A stretch of 38,624 nucleotides of DNA from Bacillota bacterium (GCA_012735135.1 JAAYHY010000025.1:1-38624); one strand, 5' to 3'; shown: positions 5,711 to 27,492, numbered from the stretch's first letter. A program made the numbers and translations. The notes: generated from the letters alone by a model not told the origin.

Positions 5711-6731
5711 ATGAAAAAGAGGTTTTTTGCATTACTACTCTTGGTCGTAGTGGTCGCGCTTACTTTAGCCGGCTGCAACTCTGCAGAGGAGAAAGCTGCC
5801 GAAACGAATGTGAAGAAAGAAGAATTTTACTCAATGGTGGTCTTCACAAAGGGGGCGGAATACTTCAATTGGTGTTATGCGGGAATGAAGGATGCCGCCA
5901 AAACCATCGGTGACCACATTAAAGTTGAACTGCAAGGTCCTGCCGAATGGGATGCCTCGTTGGAAGCAAGAGCTTTGGAGCAAGTAATTGCGAAGAAACC
6001 CAATGGGATTCTGGTCGCAGCTGCTGATGAAGCCACATTGATTCCGGCAATTAATAAAGCGATTGATGCCGGGATCCCGGTGATTGGCTTTGACAGTGAT
6101 TCGCCGGAGAGTAAACGTATCGCCTATGTGGGAACCAACAACTACGACTTTGTCGGTTGGCGCGAAAGCCATGGTGGAAATGATTGGGGGAGCGGGAGAA
6201 GTCGCTATTTGTCTCGTGCCGGGGACGGTCGCCCAAGAAGAAAGAGCGCAAGGCTTTAAAGATTATTTGGCGCAACATGCTCCTAAGGTGAAAGTGGTTA
6301 CCGAATTAAATGATGAAGGCGATGTGGCGAAAACAGAAACATTGTGTACAGCGTTATTACAATCCAACCCGAATATTAAAGGGATTTTCAGTACCCACGG
6401 TTATGGCGCTCCGGGGGCAGCAGCGGCGGTTCGTACTTTAAAGATGCAAAACAAAGTGGTTGTCATCGGAAGCGATTACGGTACCGCTGTGATTGAACTA
6501 ATCTTAAATGGTGAAGTACAGGGTACGGTAATTGATGATCCGTATTTAATTGGATATCAGGCGATGATGCTGGCCTATGCGGCGGCCCATCCGACGGATG
6601 TTCCCTCAACCAATCCGCCGTTTGGACATGTGCCTCCGTTGATTTATGGCGGGTGTTCCTTGCTGACCAAGGATTTACTGCAAGACCCGGCAGTTTTAAG
6701 TAAATACCAAAATCCCCCAAAAATAGATTAA
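5711..6731 (+). pseudogene. Sugar-type ABC substrate-binding lipoprotein, interrupted by a +1 frameshift
   Basis: Periplasmic-binding-protein-1 family (RbsB-like) receptor for the upstream importer. A signal sequence ends in the lipobox LAGC with Cys22, so the mature protein would be a lipoprotein. The first frame (5711-6259) carries the N-terminal lobe through YVGTNNYD. The next frame (open from before 6084 to 6731) carries the rest from VGAKAMVEMIGGAGEVAICL to the C-terminus. Removing one T from the TTT at 6149-6151 restores a continuous protein of about 339 residues. Both halves are well conserved, so this is either a very recent mutation, a sequencing error in a short homopolymer, or, less likely, programmed frameshifting. 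Confidence 0.85.
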
Positions 6732-18915: not shown

Positions 18916-18952
18916 AACTGAACTTTTCAGTTAACTAAGCCTCTGTTATAAT
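18916..18952 (+). promoter_or_regulatory. Promoter of the PTS operon with overlapping inverted repeat
   Basis: TTTTCA (18924-18929), 17 bases and a perfect TATAAT (18947-18952). AACTGAA (18916-18922), CTT, TTCAGTT (18926-18932) covers the -35 box, a fitting place for an activator such as the PRD protein encoded next. The leader to 19092 is about 130 bases and holds an imperfect palindrome around 18990-19030. Confidence 0.6.
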
Positions 18953-19091: not shown

Positions 19092-21200
19092 ATGTTTATT
19101 AATAATCGGCAGATGAAAATCTTGGCCAGGTTAAGTGAAGAACGCCAATCCGTTCAGCTTCAACAGTTGGCGGTCGAGTTGGGGGTAAGTATCAGGACGA
19201 TCCAGAATGACTTAAACCGGATCGACTATTATCTCCGCCTTCATCAACTGGCGCCGCTTAAACGTAATCCCCGTGGCTATGTCGGGCTTGAGGATGTTGA
19301 TGGGGAAACAAAGGCCTTTTTAGAATCCCTGTATGAGCTTGAGGCGAAAGATCTGGTTCTAACCCCGGAGGAGCGGATTCAGGTTATTTATCTCCTGCTT
19401 TTCCAGAAAGGTAGCTATCAACGGATCACGACCCTGGCTGAACGGCTGGGCGTTAGTAAAGGAACATTATTGAACGATCTGAACCAGTTGCGTCAACAGC
19501 TTCAAGCTTGGCCCGTAAAGATCGCTTCGGCCCGGGATGGCGTGAAATTAACCGGTGATGAGTATGCCCTTCGGGAATATGCCCTTAACCGGTATATGGA
19601 AGAGGCTGATGAATCCAGTATTTATCATGTTTCTGATTATTACCGCGCCAGTATTTGGGTTAGTTACCGTCTCTCTGAAGTCCGCAGTTTTGAGGAGACG
19701 CAAGTCATCTATGAGCTGATGCGCCAGACGGAGAAGAACTTGGGACGAAAATTCACGGCCAATTCCTTTTTAGCGACGATAACCTGGCTTGAATTGGCGA
19801 TTGAACGGATCAGGCATGACAATATCCTCGGAATTGAACGGGAGAAACTGGAAGGAATCTTCGAATCAGTGGAGTTCAAGGCTGCCTGTAAATTGCTCTG
19901 GGGCCTCTCCGCAACCTTGAGGATGAGGTTTCCCATGGAAGAAATTGGTCATTTTGCGGTTCGCCTGATGGCCTGTAACGATGCCAGTAGGAATTACCCG
20001 GTTTATGTGGAGAATTTTGCCGAATTGCAAGTAGAAATCTGTAAATTAATCCATCAAATCGGGTGCGACCTGCAGACTGATTTTTCGGAAATTTCATCCC
20101 TCTACAATGACTTGGTCTATTTGATTCGTCCCCTTGTTTACCGCGTGAAAAATGGGATCAAGATTAAGAATTCTCTACTTCCCCAGATCCGTAGTCACTA
20201 TCCATTGCTCTTCAATGCTGTGCGGAGGAATATCAAAGGGATCGAAAACCTGATTGGGGCTCCCTTGTCCGAGGATGAAGTGGGTTATATTACGATTCAT
20301 TTTGCCTCCATTATCGAGCCCCGGCGGCAGGTTCAGAGCAAAAGGCCGAATGTGCTTCTGGTTTGTGATTCGGGGATTGGAACCAGCAATTTACTGAAGG
20401 CGCGGATTACCTCCATGTATGAGGTAAATGTGGTCGATATTGTCACTTATGATCAGTTGGAGAAGGCCCTTGCCGATCACGCGGTGGATTACATTCTCTC
20501 CACCGCGCAGATCAGTCACGACCGGGTTCCTGTCCTTAAAGTCAGCCCTTTAATTAGTGAGCAGGATAAGGCATTACTGAACCTTCATTTCCAGCCTAAA
20601 TATCCCCGGCAGTTGGATATCGGCCAGTTAATGGGTATTTTAGAGCGTAATTGTGTGATTCGGGACAAAGCCCGGCTGATTAAAGAATTAAGTGAAGTTT
20701 ATCCCCTGTTTGCTGAAGAAAAATACCAAAAGGAAGATGTGAAAATGCTCAAAGATGTGATCGACCGAAAAATGATTGAACTGGATTTTCTTGCACATGA
20801 CTGGGAAGAAGCAGTGCGGCGGGCCGGATTGTTGTTGAAGCAAGGAGATTGCGTGGAAGACCAATATATTGAAAGCATGGTCCGGGTGGTAAAGTCCATG
20901 GGCGCCTATATTGTAATTGGGAAAGGAATTGCCTTGCCCCATTCCCGGAGTACGGAAGGGGCGAAGAAGATCGGCATTAGTTTTTTGAGGTTAGCCCAAC
21001 CGGTCTGCTTTGGCCATCCGGAGAATGATCCGGTCGACCTGTTGTTTGGCCTTTCCTCGGTGGACAATAAATCGCACATGCATGCCTTGCGGGATCTGAC
21101 TAAAGTCCTTTCGGATGAGGATAAGGTGAAAAAGTTACGGGAGATGGGTTCCAGTGAAGAAGTGCTCGACTTCTTAGCGAGGGAGGGGGATGGGAAATGA
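19092..21200 (+). CDS. PRD-domain PTS regulator (MtlR/BglG type) with fused EIIB- and EIIA-like domains
   Basis: Transcription regulator of 702 residues. Two N-terminal helix-turn-helix modules (about 5-60 and 100-160) are followed by two PRDs (about 175-285 and 290-400). An EIIB-like domain has VCDSGIGTSN with Cys425, and a C-terminal fructose/mannitol-type EIIA domain has GIALPHSR with His617. Phosphorylation of PRD, Cys and His sites couples sugar flux to gene activity in this family. The SD AAAGGAG precedes ATG 19092. The operon has no separate EIIA gene, so this domain may also donate phosphate to the transport EIIB. It overlaps the next gene by four bases. Confidence 0.92.
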   Translation: MFINNRQMKILARLSEERQSVQLQQLAVELGVSIRTIQNDLNRIDYYLRLHQLAPLKRNPRGYVGLEDVDGETKAFLESLYELEAKDLVLTPEERIQVIYLLLFQKGSYQRITTLAERLGVSKGTLLNDLNQLRQQLQAWPVKIASARDGVKLTGDEYALREYALNRYMEEADESSIYHVSDYYRASIWVSYRLSEVRSFEETQVIYELMRQTEKNLGRKFTANSFLATITWLELAIERIRHDNILGIEREKLEGIFESVEFKAACKLLWGLSATLRMRFPMEEIGHFAVRLMACNDASRNYPVYVENFAELQVEICKLIHQIGCDLQTDFSEISSLYNDLVYLIRPLVYRVKNGIKIKNSLLPQIRSHYPLLFNAVRRNIKGIENLIGAPLSEDEVGYITIHFASIIEPRRQVQSKRPNVLLVCDSGIGTSNLLKARITSMYEVNVVDIVTYDQLEKALADHAVDYILSTAQISHDRVPVLKVSPLISEQDKALLNLHFQPKYPRQLDIGQLMGILERNCVIRDKARLIKELSEVYPLFAEEKYQKEDVKMLKDVIDRKMIELDFLAHDWEEAVRRAGLLLKQGDCVEDQYIESMVRVVKSMGAYIVIGKGIALPHSRSTEGAKKIGISFLRLAQPVCFGHPENDPVDLLFGLSSVDNKSHMHALRDLTKVLSDEDKVKKLREMGSSEEVLDFLAREGDGK

Positions 21201-21805
21201 GCGACCTGACACTGGAGTTAATTAAAACCGCGCAAAAGTTGAAGGATAGGGGTTTGGTTTCGGAAGGGGTTAATAAAGGAAGCATCTCTTTACGCCTGGC
21301 TGAGGATAGGTTTTTGATTAGCCCCAGTAAGTTGGATTATGCCGAATTGACCCCAGAGAACGTAAACATCATGAAGCTGGATGGTAGTTTTGTGGTCCAA
21401 CCGTCGCCGGTTTCCCGGGATAGCTACTTTCATTTGGCGATCTATCAAAACTACCCCCATGTCCAAGCCATCATCCATACCCACTCCAAGTATGCCACGG
21501 CCCTCTGTCTGGCCAACCGGCCATTACCTTTTATTACGATGGGGATGAAGTTTCATTGTGGTGGCGCCTTGGAGATTGCGCCTTATGCCCCGCCCAACAG
21601 CGAAGAGTGTACCCGTTTGATCTTGGCCCATCTGAAGGATAAAAAAGCGGTTTTATTACAAAACCATGGTTTGGTATGTGTCGGTGAAAGTATGACCGCT
21701 TGTTACGAGACCGCTGAATTTATCGAGTCGCTAAGCGAAAGTTATCTGCACGCCTTGTTATTAGGCGAAGTCAAAGAGATTGATGGGGGAAGGGGGGGAT
21801 ATTGA
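21197..21805 (+). CDS. Class II aldolase/epimerase (AraD/FucA-like)
   Basis: Zinc-dependent enzyme of 202 residues acting on phosphorylated sugars. Metal ligands are His94 and His96 (IHTHS) and His157 (QNHG). The residue that is Glu in fuculose aldolase (E. coli FucA Glu73) is Asp75 here (SRDSYFHLAIY). Asp at this place is the feature of L-ribulose-5-phosphate 4-epimerase AraD (Asp76). This favours an epimerase-like role, but the protein is shorter than AraD. It overlaps the regulator by four bases and the EIIB gene by one base (TGATG), so it is firmly in the PTS operon. Confidence 0.85.
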   Translation: MSDLTLELIKTAQKLKDRGLVSEGVNKGSISLRLAEDRFLISPSKLDYAELTPENVNIMKLDGSFVVQPSPVSRDSYFHLAIYQNYPHVQAIIHTHSKYATALCLANRPLPFITMGMKFHCGGALEIAPYAPPNSEECTRLILAHLKDKKAVLLQNHGLVCVGESMTACYETAEFIESLSESYLHALLLGEVKEIDGGRGGY

Positions 21806-22098
21806 TGAAGTATAAAATTGGCGTTTGTTGTACATTCGGGGCTGGCAGCAGCATGATGCTGAAGATGAATCTTAGCAACGTCTTCACAAAGATGGGCCTG
21901 GAGGCCGATATTGAAGTTTATGACATCTCGGGCGTGTCGGGAGTGGAACTGGATGCTATCTATACCAGCGCGGCCTTGGCTCCCCAGGTGGCCTCCTCAG
22001 TACGGCAAATCCCCGTTATACCGGTGGTAAATTACTTCAACCTGGAAGAATTGGAGCAGTTAACGAAGGAATATTTACTGAAAGAAGGCGGGGAATAA
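21805..22098 (+). CDS. PTS EIIB subunit, ascorbate (UlaB/SgaB) type
   Basis: Cytoplasmic phosphocarrier of 97 residues. The N-terminal strand and P-loop MKYKIGVCCTFGAGSS gives the CxxGxGSS signature, with Cys9 the phosphorylated residue (Cys8 is adjacent). It receives phosphate from an EIIA and passes it to the sugar bound by EIIC. ATG 21805 overlaps the aldolase stop by one base and follows AAGGGGGGGA. An in-frame TTG at 21802 is only one codon upstream. The EIIC gene follows after 129 bases. Confidence 0.92.
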   Translation: MKYKIGVCCTFGAGSSMMLKMNLSNVFTKMGLEADIEVYDISGVSGVELDAIYTSAALAPQVASSVRQIPVIPVVNYFNLEELEQLTKEYLLKEGGE

Positions 22099-22103
22099 AG
22101 CGG

Positions 22104-22156
22104 ACCCGTTCAACCCCGGCCGGCTAATAGCGGGTAAAACCATTATTCAAACGGGT
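22104..22156 (+). other. Possible hairpin between the EIIB and EIIC genes
   Basis: ACCCGTT (22104-22110) can pair with AACGGGT (22150-22156), with a CCCG/CGGG stem inside. A GACGAG-rich stretch resembling the other intergenic elements follows at 22156-22185. It may adjust the EIIB:EIIC ratio. No T-run is present. Confidence 0.35.
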
Positions 22157-22227
22157 GACGAGTGACGAATATCCAGCGACGAGAGGTATTCTCTTTGTAG
22201 ATCCGATAAAGAAAGGAGATTAAGGCA

Positions 22228-23517
22228 ATGGTAAAGACAATCTTGGACTTCTTTATTACTCAGATCTTTCAGACTCCCGCCTATTTTATGGGACTCGTTG
22301 TTCTGCTTGGTTGCCTATTCTTAAGGAAGGATGCCAAGTCCACTTTAATTTCGGTAATCAAGGCCGTCGTTGGTATGATGATCTTAAGTATTGGCGCCGG
22401 TCAATTAAAAACCGCTTCGCAAAATGTGATCGAAATCTTTACGATGCGCTTGGGCCTGACCGGGGTAAGCACTGATATGTGGACCGCCGTCTATGCTTAT
22501 ATCGAAGAACTTAACGTAATCAATATGGGCAATGTGGCCATGGTAATGATTACCGCTTGGGTGGTCAATTTGTTCTTGGCCAAATTTACTCCAATCAAAA
22601 CCATTTTTCTCACCGGACATGTGGCTTACTGCGATTCAGCGTTTATCACCTTTTTCTTATATAAAGTATGCGGATTAACCGGGACCTCCCTTTTCATTGG
22701 CTCGGTTTTGACCTGCGCAGTTTACTGGTGGCTATTCCCGGCGATCCTGCGCCGCTTTTTAACTCCCATGCTGGGTGAAACCCCGCTTACCCTCGGACAT
22801 AATCTATGTATTTCCGGTTTGCTCACGACCCAACTGGCCCGCCTCTTCGGAAAGAAAGAAGAGAGTGCCGAAAACCTGAAACTCTCGGGTTGGCTTTCGA
22901 TCTTCAAGGATTCAGTGGTGGCCTACAGTATTATCATGAGTGTCATTTATATCACCATTATCCTGATCGCCGGTCCCGAGATTGTAGCCAAAAAGGCCGG
23001 CAGCACCAATTATATAATCTACGGGTTAAACCAGGGTTTGACGATGGCGGTCGGGGTCTATGTCCTGCTTTCCGGGGTGCGGATGTTCCTCAATGAATTA
23101 ATCCCGGCCTTCAAAGGATTTTCGGATCGGTTGGTAACGGGCGCCATTGCGGCGGTGGATAGTCCGGTCTTTTGGTCTTATGCGCCGAACGCTGCCTTAC
23201 TTGGTTTCTTATGCACGGTGCTCGGCCAATTCGCCGGGGTTGGACTGCTGGCCCTCTTCGGTTCACCCGTCCTGGCGATCCCCAGTGTGATTCCTTTGTT
23301 CTTTGGCGGTTGTACCCTCGGCGTCTTTGCTAACGCCTGGGGGGGCTGGAAAGGAGTGATCGGCGCCACCTTTATCATGGGTATTGTCACCATCTGCGGT
23401 TCAGCCGGACTGGCTTACGTGGTGGGGACCAATTTCGTTCCCGGCCATTCCGACTGGAGTACGCTATGGTTGGCTGTGATGTTTATTTTCAGGTTGTTCT
23501 TCGGAGTAAGAGCTTAA
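22228..23517 (+). CDS. PTS EIIC permease, ascorbate (UlaA/SgaT) type
   Basis: Polytopic membrane transporter of 429 residues with about ten to eleven hydrophobic segments. It moves a sugar acid or lactone while the EIIB phosphorylates it. The N-terminus FFITQIFQTPAYFMGLVVLL, the LTGHVAYCDSAF block near residue 132 and GGCTLGVFANAWGGWKG near 360 are typical of the UlaA family. The SD AAAGGAGA precedes ATG 22228. It pairs with the EIIB at 21805. The family includes ascorbate transporters, but several members carry other substrates, so ascorbate itself is not assured: the downstream UlaD and UlaE enzymes are missing here. Confidence 0.92.
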   Translation: MVKTILDFFITQIFQTPAYFMGLVVLLGCLFLRKDAKSTLISVIKAVVGMMILSIGAGQLKTASQNVIEIFTMRLGLTGVSTDMWTAVYAYIEELNVINMGNVAMVMITAWVVNLFLAKFTPIKTIFLTGHVAYCDSAFITFFLYKVCGLTGTSLFIGSVLTCAVYWWLFPAILRRFLTPMLGETPLTLGHNLCISGLLTTQLARLFGKKEESAENLKLSGWLSIFKDSVVAYSIIMSVIYITIILIAGPEIVAKKAGSTNYIIYGLNQGLTMAVGVYVLLSGVRMFLNELIPAFKGFSDRLVTGAIAAVDSPVFWSYAPNAALLGFLCTVLGQFAGVGLLALFGSPVLAIPSVIPLFFGGCTLGVFANAWGGWKGVIGATFIMGIVTICGSAGLAYVVGTNFVPGHSDWSTLWLAVMFIFRLFFGVRA

Positions 23518-23552
23518 GTTGAAATTATCTAGAGAACAAAGTAGAAGGATTG

Positions 23553-24512
23553 GTGAAAACATTGAAGACAATTAAAACGGTTAAAGGTCCAATCAGTCCG
23601 GATCAATTAGGCTTTTGCGATCTCCATGAGCATCTTTGGAAATCCGGAGGAATGGAAGTCTTTAAGGATGCGGATTTTGGCATTGAGAATATCGAAAAAT
23701 CCCGCGCCGAACTGGAGCGTTACCGGCAAGCCGGGGGCAGGGGTATCGTGGATATGCAACCAATCGGTGTGGGGCGGGGCATCAATCAATTAAAAGAGAT
23801 TGCCGACGGGGTTGATGTCCATTTAATCGCCGTTACCGGGTTCCACCGGGAAGCAATGTACGACAAGGCCCATTTTGTCTATAAATACAGTTTGGATCAG
23901 ATTGTGGAGCTTGTCGTGGCCGAGGTGGAAAAAGGAATCGAAGTGAATGATTATTGTGGTCCCTTTGTTGAACATTCCGGGATCTTACCCGGAGTGGTAA
24001 AGGCCGGCACCGGCTATTATAAAATTAGCCCGCTCGAAGAGAAGCTGCTGAAGGTGGCAGGGAAGGTCAGCGCAAAGACCGGGATCCCGGTCATGACCCA
24101 TACCCAAATCGGAACCATGGGCTTGGAGCAAGTGGAGATCTTAAAAGCCCAGGGTGTGCCGGCGGAGAAGATTTGCATCGGCCATTTGGACCGGAACGCG
24201 GATCTCACTTACCACCGGATGGTGTTGAGGGAAGGAGTTTATGTCCAATATGACTGTGTTGCGCGGGTTAAGTATCATCCCGTAAGTGATACGATGGAAC
24301 TCATACGGGAGTTGAGCAAAGAAGGTTATGCCGATCGGATCATGATTGGTGGCGACTGGGGTCGCGCCTCCTATTTAAAAAGTTATGGCGGCTCACCGGG
24401 ATTGGAATTTATCCCCCGGCAATTGCCCGGCTTGATGCGGGAATATGGGATCTCCGAGGAAGTAATCCAACGCATCTTTATTGATAATCCCAAAGAATTC
24501 CTCGCTTTTTAA
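23553..24512 (+). CDS. Phosphotriesterase-family hydrolase, probable phospho-sugar lactonase
   Basis: Amidohydrolase-superfamily protein of about 319 residues. The binuclear metal site is intact: HEH (His25, His27), a candidate carbamylated lysine in VVKAGTG near 149, THTQ, GHLDRN and GGDWGR. Characterised relatives (Listeria Lmo2620, Bacillus Bh0225) open phosphorylated pentono-lactones, which suits its place behind an ascorbate-type PTS. Start uncertain: TTG 23550, GTG 23553 and TTG 23562 are all in frame near AGAAGGAT (23543-23550). The last gives the family's usual MKTIKTV beginning. Confidence 0.85.
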   Translation: MKTLKTIKTVKGPISPDQLGFCDLHEHLWKSGGMEVFKDADFGIENIEKSRAELERYRQAGGRGIVDMQPIGVGRGINQLKEIADGVDVHLIAVTGFHREAMYDKAHFVYKYSLDQIVELVVAEVEKGIEVNDYCGPFVEHSGILPGVVKAGTGYYKISPLEEKLLKVAGKVSAKTGIPVMTHTQIGTMGLEQVEILKAQGVPAEKICIGHLDRNADLTYHRMVLREGVYVQYDCVARVKYHPVSDTMELIRELSKEGYADRIMIGGDWGRASYLKSYGGSPGLEFIPRQLPGLMREYGISEEVIQRIFIDNPKEFLAF

Positions 24513-24520
24513 GAATGCGC

Positions 24521-24558
24521 CTTCGTTTCGTGGCAGATCTTTCTGCCACGAAACGAAG
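24521..24558 (+). terminator. Perfect 16-bp inverted repeat between lactonase and HAD genes
   Basis: CTTCGTTTCGTGGCAG (24521-24536) and CTGCCACGAAACGAAG (24543-24558) around ATCTTT. No U-tract follows. It could be a partial terminator, a processing site or an operator. An open frame runs through it, but the HAD start most likely lies after it. Confidence 0.6.
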
Positions 24559-24586
24559 TTCAAAGCAAATGGAGAGGAAGAAAGGT

Positions 24587-25417
24587 TTGAAGCGGAAAAT
24601 TTCCTTGCTGGCCTTTGATTTAGATGGGACCCTCCTGAACAGTTCGTTAGAGATCAGTGAATTTACTTTATCCCAGATCAGGTCAATAGTGGAAAAGAAG
24701 ATCAAGGTTACCATTTGTTCCGGGCGGGTCCCCGCGCTCCAAGAGTTGTATTTGAAGCAATTAAGTCTTGACGGCCCGTATGTGGCCTGCAACGGCGCCT
24801 TGATTCCCCATCGCGGGAATGCTGATTTATTTGCGAAACCGCTGAACACAAAAGAAGTGGAAAAACTTTACCATTTTTTTAAAGCAGAAAAATTGCATGC
24901 TTGTTTCCAGACCAGGGATGAAATCTATTTTTCCGATAATAACCCCCGGCAATGGCTGGTGAAGAGGTATAATCTTTTGGCCGGAGAAAGGGGCCTTCCC
25001 CAGGCGCCGATGGAAGAATTACCGGCTTTATTTGATCATAAAGCGGTTGTTTATAAAGCCATGGTTTATGCTCCCGAAAAGGAGCAATTCGAAAAGGTCC
25101 GAAGTTTCCTGGAGCGGGAGACAGAAATCGCCTACACTTTTAGTGAGAAAGGTCTCTTTGATCTTATCTCGCCAGGGATCGACAAGGGCTTTGGGATCAA
25201 GAAAATTGCGGATTATTATGGTATCCCCTACGAGGAAGTATGCGCTTTTGGGGATCATGATAATGATATCCCTTTTTTTCAGGCAGTGGGCACTTCGGTG
25301 GCGATGGGAAATGCGGTTCCTCACCTAAAAGCCATTGCCACTTTTGTCACGGATAGTAATGATCGGGATGGGGTCGGAAAAGCAATTCAAAGGTTGGCTG
25401 TTTATTTTGGGGAATAA
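24587..25417 (+). CDS. HAD superfamily Cof-type phosphatase
   Basis: Sugar-phosphate-type phosphatase, HAD subfamily IIB, 277 residues from TTG 24587. Motif I is FDLDGTLL (nucleophile Asp11, Asp13), motif II ICSGR, then the Lys of KGFGIKK, and motif IV GDHDNDIPFF with the family's AMGNA. The frame is open from ATG 24515, but those codons run through a perfect inverted repeat. TTG 24587 has the SD tract GAGAGGAAGAAAGG and yields the normal Cof N-terminus. ATG 24569 is the alternative. It may remove phosphate from pathway intermediates of this PTS operon. Cof proteins are promiscuous, so the substrate is open. Confidence 0.9.
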   Translation: MKRKISLLAFDLDGTLLNSSLEISEFTLSQIRSIVEKKIKVTICSGRVPALQELYLKQLSLDGPYVACNGALIPHRGNADLFAKPLNTKEVEKLYHFFKAEKLHACFQTRDEIYFSDNNPRQWLVKRYNLLAGERGLPQAPMEELPALFDHKAVVYKAMVYAPEKEQFEKVRSFLERETEIAYTFSEKGLFDLISPGIDKGFGIKKIADYYGIPYEEVCAFGDHDNDIPFFQAVGTSVAMGNAVPHLKAIATFVTDSNDRDGVGKAIQRLAVYFGE

Positions 25418-25476
25418 AAGTCAAGCGCTGGGACGAAAAGTAGCGAAGCAGGATTCAGAGAAAGAGAGGGTGGAGT

Positions 25477-27198
25477 ATGAGATGCAAAGGGAACCCGGTA
25501 TCGGAAGGGCTGGGGATTGGTGAAGTCTATTCCTATCGGACCATGGAGTTTACGGTTTCGTCAAGCCCCATCTCCCGGGAACAGGTCGGCCAGAATTTGG
25601 CGGAGTACTACAGGATAAAAGAAAAGGCCGCTGCGGAACTAAAAGCCATCATTGATCAGCTTCAACGCGAACAACCGGATAAAGCGCTGATCTTTATGGC
25701 CCACCAAGAAATATTAGATGATGAAGCCATCGATGAAAAAATTCGCCATGAAATCACGGAGAATCTCTCCAATCCTACCTGGGCAATTTATACTGTCTAT
25801 GAAGAGTTCGGGCAGTTGTTAAAAAATATGAAGAAACAGGTCTTTCGGGAGAGGGCCCAGGATATCTTGGATGTGCGTAATCGTTTATTGCGGGTGGCCA
25901 ACGGGATCATAGCCCCTAATCTGAACTCCCTGGATAAACCGGTGGTTATTGCCGCCCATGATTTATTGCCATCGGATACGGCAACCCTTGACCGGTCAAA
26001 AGTCGTGGCGATTATTACGGAGACCGGCGGGGAAACCTCCCATTCGGCGATTATCGCCCGGAGTTACGGTATACCGGCGCTCTTGGGGATCCCCGGGTTG
26101 ATGAATAAAGTGAAGGATGGGGACCGGGTCGTTGTCGATGCCCTTGACGGGGAGTTAATTATCGATCCGACCGAAGAAGAACTGGCAGAGTATGCAGCGA
26201 AAAGAGAGCGTTATTTAAAATGGGCGACCGATACCGAAGCTTATCTGGGGAAAAAAGCCGTCACCAAAGACGGGGTAAGCCTGGAGGTTGGTCTTAATAT
26301 CGGGACGGTGGAAGAAAGCCGGGTCAAGCAGGCGGCCTATGCCGATTTTATTGGCCTTTTCAGAACGGAATTTCTCTATCTGTCCTCCCCTGAGCTGCCG
26401 ACCGAAGAGGAGCAATATGAAACTTACAAGCAGGTGCTGGAGACCTTTCAACGGCCGGTTGTCTTGCGGACGTTGGATATTGGCGGTGACAAGAATGTAC
26501 CGTGTCTTGCTTTGCCGAAAGAAGATAACCCCTTTTTAGGGGTGCGCGGCCTCCGGCTCTGTTTTGACCGGCCGGAGATCTTTCAAACCCAATTAAGGGC
26601 CGCTTTGCGCGCTTCGGCCCATGGGGACCTTTCGCTAATGTTGCCGATGGTAACCAATCTGGACGATATTTATCAGGCCAAGGAACTGATTAATACTGTC
26701 AGGCAAGAGATGGAAGAAGCGGGTATCCCGATGGCGCCAAAGATCAAAGTGGGCATTATGGTGGAAGTGCCATCGGTGGCGCTCATCGCCGATCTGGTGG
26801 CCAAAGAGGTGGATTTTGTCAGTATCGGAACCAATGACTTGTGTCAGTACACCTTGGCCGTTGACCGGCAGAACCAAAGGATGGCCGATTATTACCAAAG
26901 TTATCACCCGGCCTTATTTAGATTGATCGGTTATGCGACAAAACACTTTTTGGCGGCCGGCAAGCCGGTCAGTGTCTGTGGGGAACTGGGGGGGGATCCC
27001 CTGGCGGTACCGGTCCTGATTGGTTTGGGCGTGCGGCGGTTTAGTATGAATCCTTCTTCCATCGCCAAAGTGAAAAGGGTGATTACCCACCTGACCATTG
27101 ATCATGCCCAAGAACTGGCGGATCAAGTCCAAACCTTAGCCACGGCCGGTCAGGTTAAACGGTTTCTCGAAAGGGAGCTGAAAGATTATATCTGTTAA
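25477..27198 (+). CDS. ptsI: PTS enzyme I (phosphoenolpyruvate-protein phosphotransferase)
   Basis: First PTS enzyme: takes phosphate from PEP on His189 and gives it to HPr. The 573 residues match normal enzyme I. His189 is in GGETSHSAIIARSYGIP, at the E. coli number. The PEP barrel has GLFRTEFLYL, LRTLDIGGDKN, VEVPSVALIAD and SIGTNDLCQYTLAVDR. The active-site Cys501 in VCGELGGDP corresponds to E. coli Cys502. The SD GAGAGGGTGGAG precedes ATG 25477. The gene is 59 bases after the HAD gene and 12 before HPr. Placement inside a sugar-specific operon is unusual, since ptsHI is normally its own unit with HPr first. Confidence 0.97.
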   Translation: MRCKGNPVSEGLGIGEVYSYRTMEFTVSSSPISREQVGQNLAEYYRIKEKAAAELKAIIDQLQREQPDKALIFMAHQEILDDEAIDEKIRHEITENLSNPTWAIYTVYEEFGQLLKNMKKQVFRERAQDILDVRNRLLRVANGIIAPNLNSLDKPVVIAAHDLLPSDTATLDRSKVVAIITETGGETSHSAIIARSYGIPALLGIPGLMNKVKDGDRVVVDALDGELIIDPTEEELAEYAAKRERYLKWATDTEAYLGKKAVTKDGVSLEVGLNIGTVEESRVKQAAYADFIGLFRTEFLYLSSPELPTEEEQYETYKQVLETFQRPVVLRTLDIGGDKNVPCLALPKEDNPFLGVRGLRLCFDRPEIFQTQLRAALRASAHGDLSLMLPMVTNLDDIYQAKELINTVRQEMEEAGIPMAPKIKVGIMVEVPSVALIADLVAKEVDFVSIGTNDLCQYTLAVDRQNQRMADYYQSYHPALFRLIGYATKHFLAAGKPVSVCGELGGDPLAVPVLIGLGVRRFSMNPSSIAKVKRVITHLTIDHAQELADQVQTLATAGQVKRFLERELKDYIC

Positions 27199-27210
27199 GG
27201 AGGGGCCTCA

Positions 27211-27492
27211 ATGTATGCGGATCAAGTGGTGGTGATTAACAAGACCGGATTGCATGCGCGACCGGCTTATGAATTTGTCAATATGGCAAAGAGGTTTGAA
27301 AGTAATATAATGATGCGCCGACTTGACGGTAGTGATACGGAAGCGATTAATGCCAAATCCATCGTTTTTGTCCTGTCCCTGGGGATCTGTGAGGGAGACA
27401 AGATTGAAATTGTTGCCGATGGGGATGATGAAAAAGAAGCAGTGGAAGCCCTGGTTAAGCTGGTGGCCAGCGGCTTTGGGGAAGCGGAATAA
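27211..27492 (+). CDS. ptsH: HPr phosphocarrier protein
   Basis: Small phosphocarrier of 93 residues. The catalytic His15 lies in TGLHARPA. The regulatory serine is Ser50 in NAKSIVFVLSLGI; the few extra residues before it explain the shift from the usual Ser46. A serine in this context is the HPr kinase site used for catabolite control in Bacillota, so this is more likely a true HPr than the serine-poor Crh or fructose-type paralogues. The SD AAGGAGGGG precedes ATG 27211. It ends the operon, only five bases before the convergent MATE gene. Confidence 0.95.
   Translation: MYADQVVVINKTGLHARPAYEFVNMAKRFESNIMMRRLDGSDTEAINAKSIVFVLSLGICEGDKIEIVADGDDEKEAVEALVKLVASGFGEAE

Follow-up and report, generated by a model that had tools for sequence, protein, structure and literature searches.

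A sugar phosphotransferase operon of a Bacillota bacterium whose transcription regulator carries the only EIIA_2 domain found in the genome

Which protein hands phosphate to a sugar transporter of the phosphotransferase system (PTS) when its operon contains no EIIA gene? The question is raised by a Bacillota bacterium (GCA_012735135.1, JAAYHY010000025.1:1-38624; the window is this whole stretch of 38,624 nucleotides), in which eight genes, all on the + strand, were found at 19092-27492 in the order regulator, class II aldolase, EIIB, EIIC, lactonase, HAD phosphatase, enzyme I (EI) and HPr. The regulator (19092-21200, 702 aa) was assigned to the MtlR type by Pfam, alignments, AlphaFold and Foldseek. 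Its single chain was found to contain HTH_11, a Mga-type helix-turn-helix (HTH), two PTS regulation domains (PRD1 and PRD2) and an EIIB-like domain with Cys425, followed by an EIIA_2 domain (PF00359) at residues 553-698 (20748-21185) with His617 and His662; this domain set, the EIIB-like Cys425 and the phospho-His617 are those of an MtlR/LicR-type regulator. The transport EIIB (21802-22098; PF02302) is of the ascorbate (asc)/GAT type with Cys9 and Cys10, and the EIIC (22228-23517; PF03611, 303 bits) is of the UlaA/EIIC-GAT type. The EI (25477-27198; TIGR01417, 596 bits) was found by its motif to contain His189, followed by the HPr (27211-27492; PF00381 and motif) with His15 and a retained Ser46-equivalent in a KSI motif. 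Of an ascorbate/GAT-type transporter the EIIC-GAT and the EIIB with its active-site Cys are thus present, and an own free or transporter-fused EIIA is absent; no free EIIA gene was found within 19092-27492 by open reading frame (ORF) and domain calls. A preliminary description of the window had reported Cys425 and His617 of the regulator, His189 of EI and His15 of HPr in one run without a free EIIA, and this was confirmed by ORFs, domains and motifs.

The source genome (G000) is a draft assembly of 161 contigs with a completeness of 99.3%. Genome-wide, PF00359 (PTS_EIIA_2) was found to have a single match, in the regulator, and PF03611 (EIIC-GAT) a single match, in the operon EIIC; PF02302 matched the operon EIIB and the EIIB-like domain of the regulator, the operon EIIB being the only free match. 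Because the genome contains a single EIIA_2, a single EIIC-GAT and a single free GAT-type EIIB, and the EIIA_2 is that of the regulator, it is likely that phosphate reaches the transport EIIB from HPr by way of the regulator's EIIA, whose phosphorylation state would report transport. The preliminary description had offered this reading and, as the other choice, an EIIA elsewhere in the genome. The former is supported by the single EIIA_2, by the gene inventory of a sister genus and by the domain conservation described below; the latter found no support within the EIIA_2 family, since the only PF00359 match lies in the regulator. The interpretation was therefore upheld in part, with its main point strengthened. 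Its view of ptsI and ptsH did not hold, as two EI and two HPr genes were found genome-wide, the second pair lying together on contig C67 beside a CAT-RBD/PRD antiterminator, also in the order EI then HPr, so that neither uniqueness nor a reversed order sets the operon pair apart. A free ascorbate-type EIIA and a second ptsHI had been named among the findings that would speak against the reading; the whole-genome search returned the second ptsHI and no free ascorbate-type EIIA.

The phosphate would pass from phosphoenolpyruvate to His189 of EI, to His15 of HPr, to His617 of the regulator's EIIA, to Cys9 or Cys10 of EIIB and on to the sugar at EIIC. In the regulator, an intact transport-type EIIA would act from a tether, which would make the transcription regulator at the same time an indispensable part of the transporter. 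The same EIIA could also phosphorylate the regulator's own EIIB-like Cys425, and in MtlR of Bacillus subtilis phosphorylation of the EIIB-like Cys is an inactivating mark. While substrate is imported, phosphate would drain through EIIB, Cys425 would be unphosphorylated and the regulator would activate the operon, its presumed DNA target; when no substrate is present, EIIA and Cys425 would remain phosphorylated and the operon would be off. The AlphaFold model of the regulator gave pLDDT values mostly of 87-98 for EIIA residues 553-700, followed in Foldseek by a match of the domain model to the free PTS EIIA structure 3oxp (TM 0.91, 1.6 A). The linker at residues 541-549 is predicted to be a mobile, flexible tether that holds the EIIA domain, because its pLDDT is below 50 and the overall pTM is low (0.56). 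The regulator model was also found to match AtxA/Mga-type regulators in Foldseek.

The main rival is that another EIIA feeds the transport EIIB, for example the glucose-type one on C67, and that the EIIA of the regulator is a sensor only. The source genome contains one glucose-type EIIA (EIIA_1) gene, near the EI-HPr pair of C67 and near a nagA-like gene, and in B. subtilis glucose-family EIIAs supply EIICBs that have no EIIA (PMC6148471), so that such cross-talk is documented. The reported cases concern, however, glucose and sucrose/beta-glucoside EIIBs and not asc/GAT EIIBs. A draft genome of a different genus of the same family (G009, 97% complete) was found to contain the identical eight-gene order (locus L022), and its sole EIIA_2 is that of the regulator; searches for EIIA_1, EIIA-lac and EIIA-man gave no match in it, the glucitol-type EIIA lying outside the search. 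Because of the missing EIIA_1 match in this genome, the rival is disfavoured, and it would also leave unexplained the transport-type motifs of the regulator EIIA at loci without a free EIIA; it was considered improbable. Two further genomes (G005 and G025, each 88% complete) gave no match in the same searches for EIIA_1, EIIA-lac and EIIA-man. The regulator of G025 (L030, 9689-11857), in an operon of the order HPr-EI-regulator-EIIB-EIIC-phosphotriesterase (PTE), was found to contain Thr in place of the EIIB-like Cys; its EIIA is intact, and the genome has no other EIIA_2. Because the Cys is lost and the EIIA intact, this EIIA cannot have been kept for self-phosphorylation.

A free EIIA_2 gene might also have been missed, in an assembly gap or through divergence, and the draft state of both the source genome and G009 speaks for this. 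In other genomes, however, as many as 20 EIIA_2 matches were returned by the same search. The arrangement without a free EIIA_2 was found in G010 and in the one-contig genome G048, which contains one EIIA_2, in a regulator adjoining EIIB and EIIC (L023), and one EIIA-man. As it was found in dozens of loci besides, the gap would have to recur, and a missed gene was judged highly improbable.

Between the source genome and G009, third codon positions of the operon were found to be 50-59% identical in every gene, and the proteins 60-94% identical. Because the proteins are so much better kept than the third positions, the operon without a free EIIA appears to have been under purifying selection for long. 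The EIIC (22228-23517; 4176-5468 in L022) showed the highest protein identity of the eight (94%), with third positions as divergent as those of its neighbours, which points to unusually strong constraint. Recent transfer was considered as the source of this identity and was rejected, since none of the eight genes stands out in its third-position divergence. A locus of G238 (L148, 159-2282 onward) was found to contain regulator, aldolase, EIIB, EIIC and HAD genes ordered as in the window, without lactonase, EI and HPr.

Across the phylum, EIIC-GAT was found in 82 of 398 genomes. With hidden Markov models (HMMs) grown from the proteins of the window, 114 loci were examined, 100 from the phylum and 14 from close relatives. 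Loci with an MtlR-type regulator that contains EIIA, beside EIIC and without a free EIIA, were placed in class S, and those with such a regulator and a free EIIA nearby in class F. Class S contained 36 loci, including that of the window, and class F 20; the remaining loci were found to contain a free EIIA with another or no visible regulator, a larger regulator, or no recognisable EIIA. One locus counted in class S (L075/L253) is without EIIB and is a weak member. At L157 a seemingly free EIIA begins at the contig edge and nests among the regulator EIIAs, and it was taken for a regulator cut short. Named genomes, scanned by EIIA motifs, gave many further operons of class S, in Thermoanaerobacterium, Caldanaerobacter, Tepidanaerobacter, Clostridium, Pelosinus and Bacillaceae. 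The arrangement in which the regulator contains the EIIA and a free one is absent thus recurs across Firmicutes and is not special to this operon.

EIIC-GAT without any EIIA_2 was found in four sampled genomes. These were checked as a potential contradiction and were found to contain lone EIIC genes only (L248-L252), with no recognisable EIIB nearby; they are possibly non-PTS transporters. At L253 (217-6215, G344) the EI is split in two frames, and a regulator and EIIC are present without EIIB or a free EIIA, which suggests an eroding system. Such loci favour a third alternative, that the transporter of the window is not an active PTS, either because EIIB and EIIC have decayed or because they facilitate uptake without phosphorylation, the regulator's EIIA acting on the regulator alone. 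The EIIB cysteine and the active sites of EI and HPr are retained, however, and with synonymous sites saturated the EIIC proteins of the window and of G009 still share 94% identity. A dedicated EI and HPr would serve no purpose in such a system, and the best matches of the lactonase act on phosphorylated lactones. An inactive transporter was accordingly given only a very small chance.

The conservation of the regulator EIIA was compared between class S and class F, the main comparisons resting on the phylum survey only. The phospho-His column was found to be conserved in all regulators of both classes. The second active-site His (His662), which aligns with a His shared by the known structures of free EIIAs, was conserved in 36 of 36 class S regulators versus 8 of 20 in class F (Fisher p = 8e-7 on 54 long rows). 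In the set enlarged by the named-genome scan, which was selected on EIIA motifs, Arg619 was conserved in 77/80 class S versus 10/41 class F regulators. With the rest of the protein matched for divergence, the EIIA identity was 40-41% in class S pairs versus 20-21% in class F pairs (40% versus 20% where HTH and PRD are 20-25% identical); EIIA was found to be the best conserved domain in class S and among the least conserved in class F, where it is often degenerate. An HMM of free two-His EIIAs gave medians of 194 bits for class S and 93 for class F, and 163 bits for the regulator of the window. In the EIIA tree, 34 class S domains and 14 free asc-type EIIAs were found to interleave in one clade, and 10 of the 20 class F domains formed a separate long-branch clade. 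By these sequence comparisons, the EIIA of class S regulators appears to be conserved like a catalytic part of a transporter.

Several observations weigh against a regulator EIIA that energises the transporter. Classes S and F are partly clades, so that the comparisons share ancestry. In an independent-pairs test on the regulator tree the loss of His662 was not significant, there being too few informative pairs, and the loss of Arg619 went in the expected direction in 4.4 of 8 independent pairs versus 0.1 (median p 0.125), a directional result only. The phospho-His is universal, class F included, as expected of a purely regulatory EIIA. The second His was kept in the eight class F regulators given above, and in 30 of 41 in the enlarged, motif-selected set. 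The His617 motif of the regulator reads PHSRSTEG, versus PHARPE.G, with three differing positions beside His617. The EIIA_1 of C67 is a possible alternative donor, and the source genome is a draft of 161 contigs.

The PRDs of the regulator were found to have lost most of their histidines. B. subtilis MtlR contains four PRD histidines, H230, H289, H342 and H399 (PMC8560693), and in the alignment these columns read W232, R291, L344 and H403 in the regulator of the window, which keeps only H403. Such histidines are typical of MtlR/LicR-type regulators, although the domain definition does not include them. The sister-genus regulator (L022) was found to contain the same replacements, whereas the column of L344 was kept as His in 31 of 34 related regulators without a free EIIA. 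In B. subtilis, H342 is the site in PRD2 that is tied to HPr-dependent stimulation as well as to catabolite repression (PMC3217849). Because this site and two more of the four PRD histidines are lost, the PRD input is probably reduced, with the EIIB/EIIA module left as the main input. A wider proposal is that the regulator is an obligatory, turning-over phosphotransfer enzyme of the sugar transporter, its EIIA being the sole one that was found, for example, in G009. The lineage of the window would have lost most PRD signalling and gained an EI and HPr of its own, so that the circuit would be closed and the molecule that sets transcription would itself read the flux of transport directly; the balance tips slightly in favour of this proposal.

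The closest described arrangement is that of the ula2 operon of Streptococcus pneumoniae (SP2131-SP2127: UlaR2, UlaB2, UlaA2, transketolase), in which an asc-type EIIB and EIIC stand behind an HTH/PRD/EIIB/EIIA regulator, are co-transcribed with it and have no dedicated EIIA. The operon of the window fits this SP2129-SP2131-type layout, in that EIIB and EIIC come behind a regulator whose EIIA is intact, and a free EIIA is lacking. For SP2129-SP2131, Bidossi et al. suggested in 2012 that the EIIA of the regulator energises the transporter (PMC3302838); UlaR2 was shown to be an activator with ascorbate present, and the role of its EIIA was not examined there (PMC4324149). In the literature searched, which did not cover subscription reviews, no experimental or biochemical test of energising by a regulator EIIA was found. 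Unlike the window, ula2 contains transketolase genes instead of lactonase, aldolase and HAD genes and has no operon EI or HPr; in S. pneumoniae other EIIA genes exist, so that the regulator's EIIA is not alone. MtlR of B. subtilis has the same domain order, the EIIB-Gat-like Cys C419 and the EIIA-like H599 (PMC8560693), but there a separate transport EIIA (MtlF) is present and the mtlR gene lies 14.4 kb from the operon (PMC3217849). Two Listeria loci (L. cossartiae and L. farberi; L231 and L232) were found to contain regulator, EIIB, EIIC and a PTE-family lactonase as in the window, whereas a free EIIA gene is present and the regulator EIIA reads PHASVDDG, without Arg619. The loci of Thermoanaerobacterium, Caldanaerobacter, Tepidanaerobacter and Clostridium (L165-L176 and L184) contained an EIIA regulator with EIIB and EIIC, in one order or the other, directly behind it and without a free EIIA, and a PTE lactonase is present as well at L173 and L184; unlike the window, these loci have no EI or HPr in the operon, and most regulators of the class keep the PRD histidines. 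New here are the genome-scale support, the dedicated EI and HPr, and the loss of three of the four PRD histidines.

In the usual account, it is the transporter that gives phosphate to a PRD regulator. If the EIIA of the regulator is the only donor, one catalytic site would be common to transport and transcription, the copy number of a transcription factor would limit import, and induction would follow flux with no need of a sensor of its own. As this architecture is shared by many Firmicutes (Thermoanaerobacterium, Caldanaerobacter, Clostridium, Bacillaceae and streptococci), such a role of the regulator would account for many PTS annotations in which the EIIA is listed as missing.

The class II aldolase/epimerase-family enzyme (21197-21805; PF00596) overlaps the regulator gene and the EIIB gene by 4 nt each, and the widest intergenic gap of the operon (129 nt) was found between EIIB and EIIC. 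The lactonase (23550-24512; PF02126) is of the PTE fold, followed by a Cof-type HAD-IIB phosphatase (24515-25417; PF08282, TIGR00099). The best NCBIfam match of the lactonase is the phospho-furanose lactonase NF045706 (249 bits, under the curated cut-off of 630 bits, so that it is a relative only), and its best PDB matches are 3msr/3ovg and 3pnz; these best matches act on phosphorylated lactones. The operon lactonase probably acts on a phosphorylated furanose lactone. Because its best relatives are phospho-furanose lactonases, the substrate, for which the operon would provide a complete PTS, may be a sugar acid of the lactone type or a related compound of the ascorbate type. Upstream of the regulator gene, a promoter-like site by consensus match only (TTTTCA-17-TATAAT, with TG ahead of the second hexamer) was found at 18924-18952 on the + strand; it is weak, as 17 such sites were found in the region versus 12.3 expected in shuffles. 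Elsewhere in the window, at 5711-6731, the sugar-binding protein of an ABC transporter was found to be split across the overlapping frames 5711-6259 and 6084-6731, in the manner of a frameshift or an assembly error.

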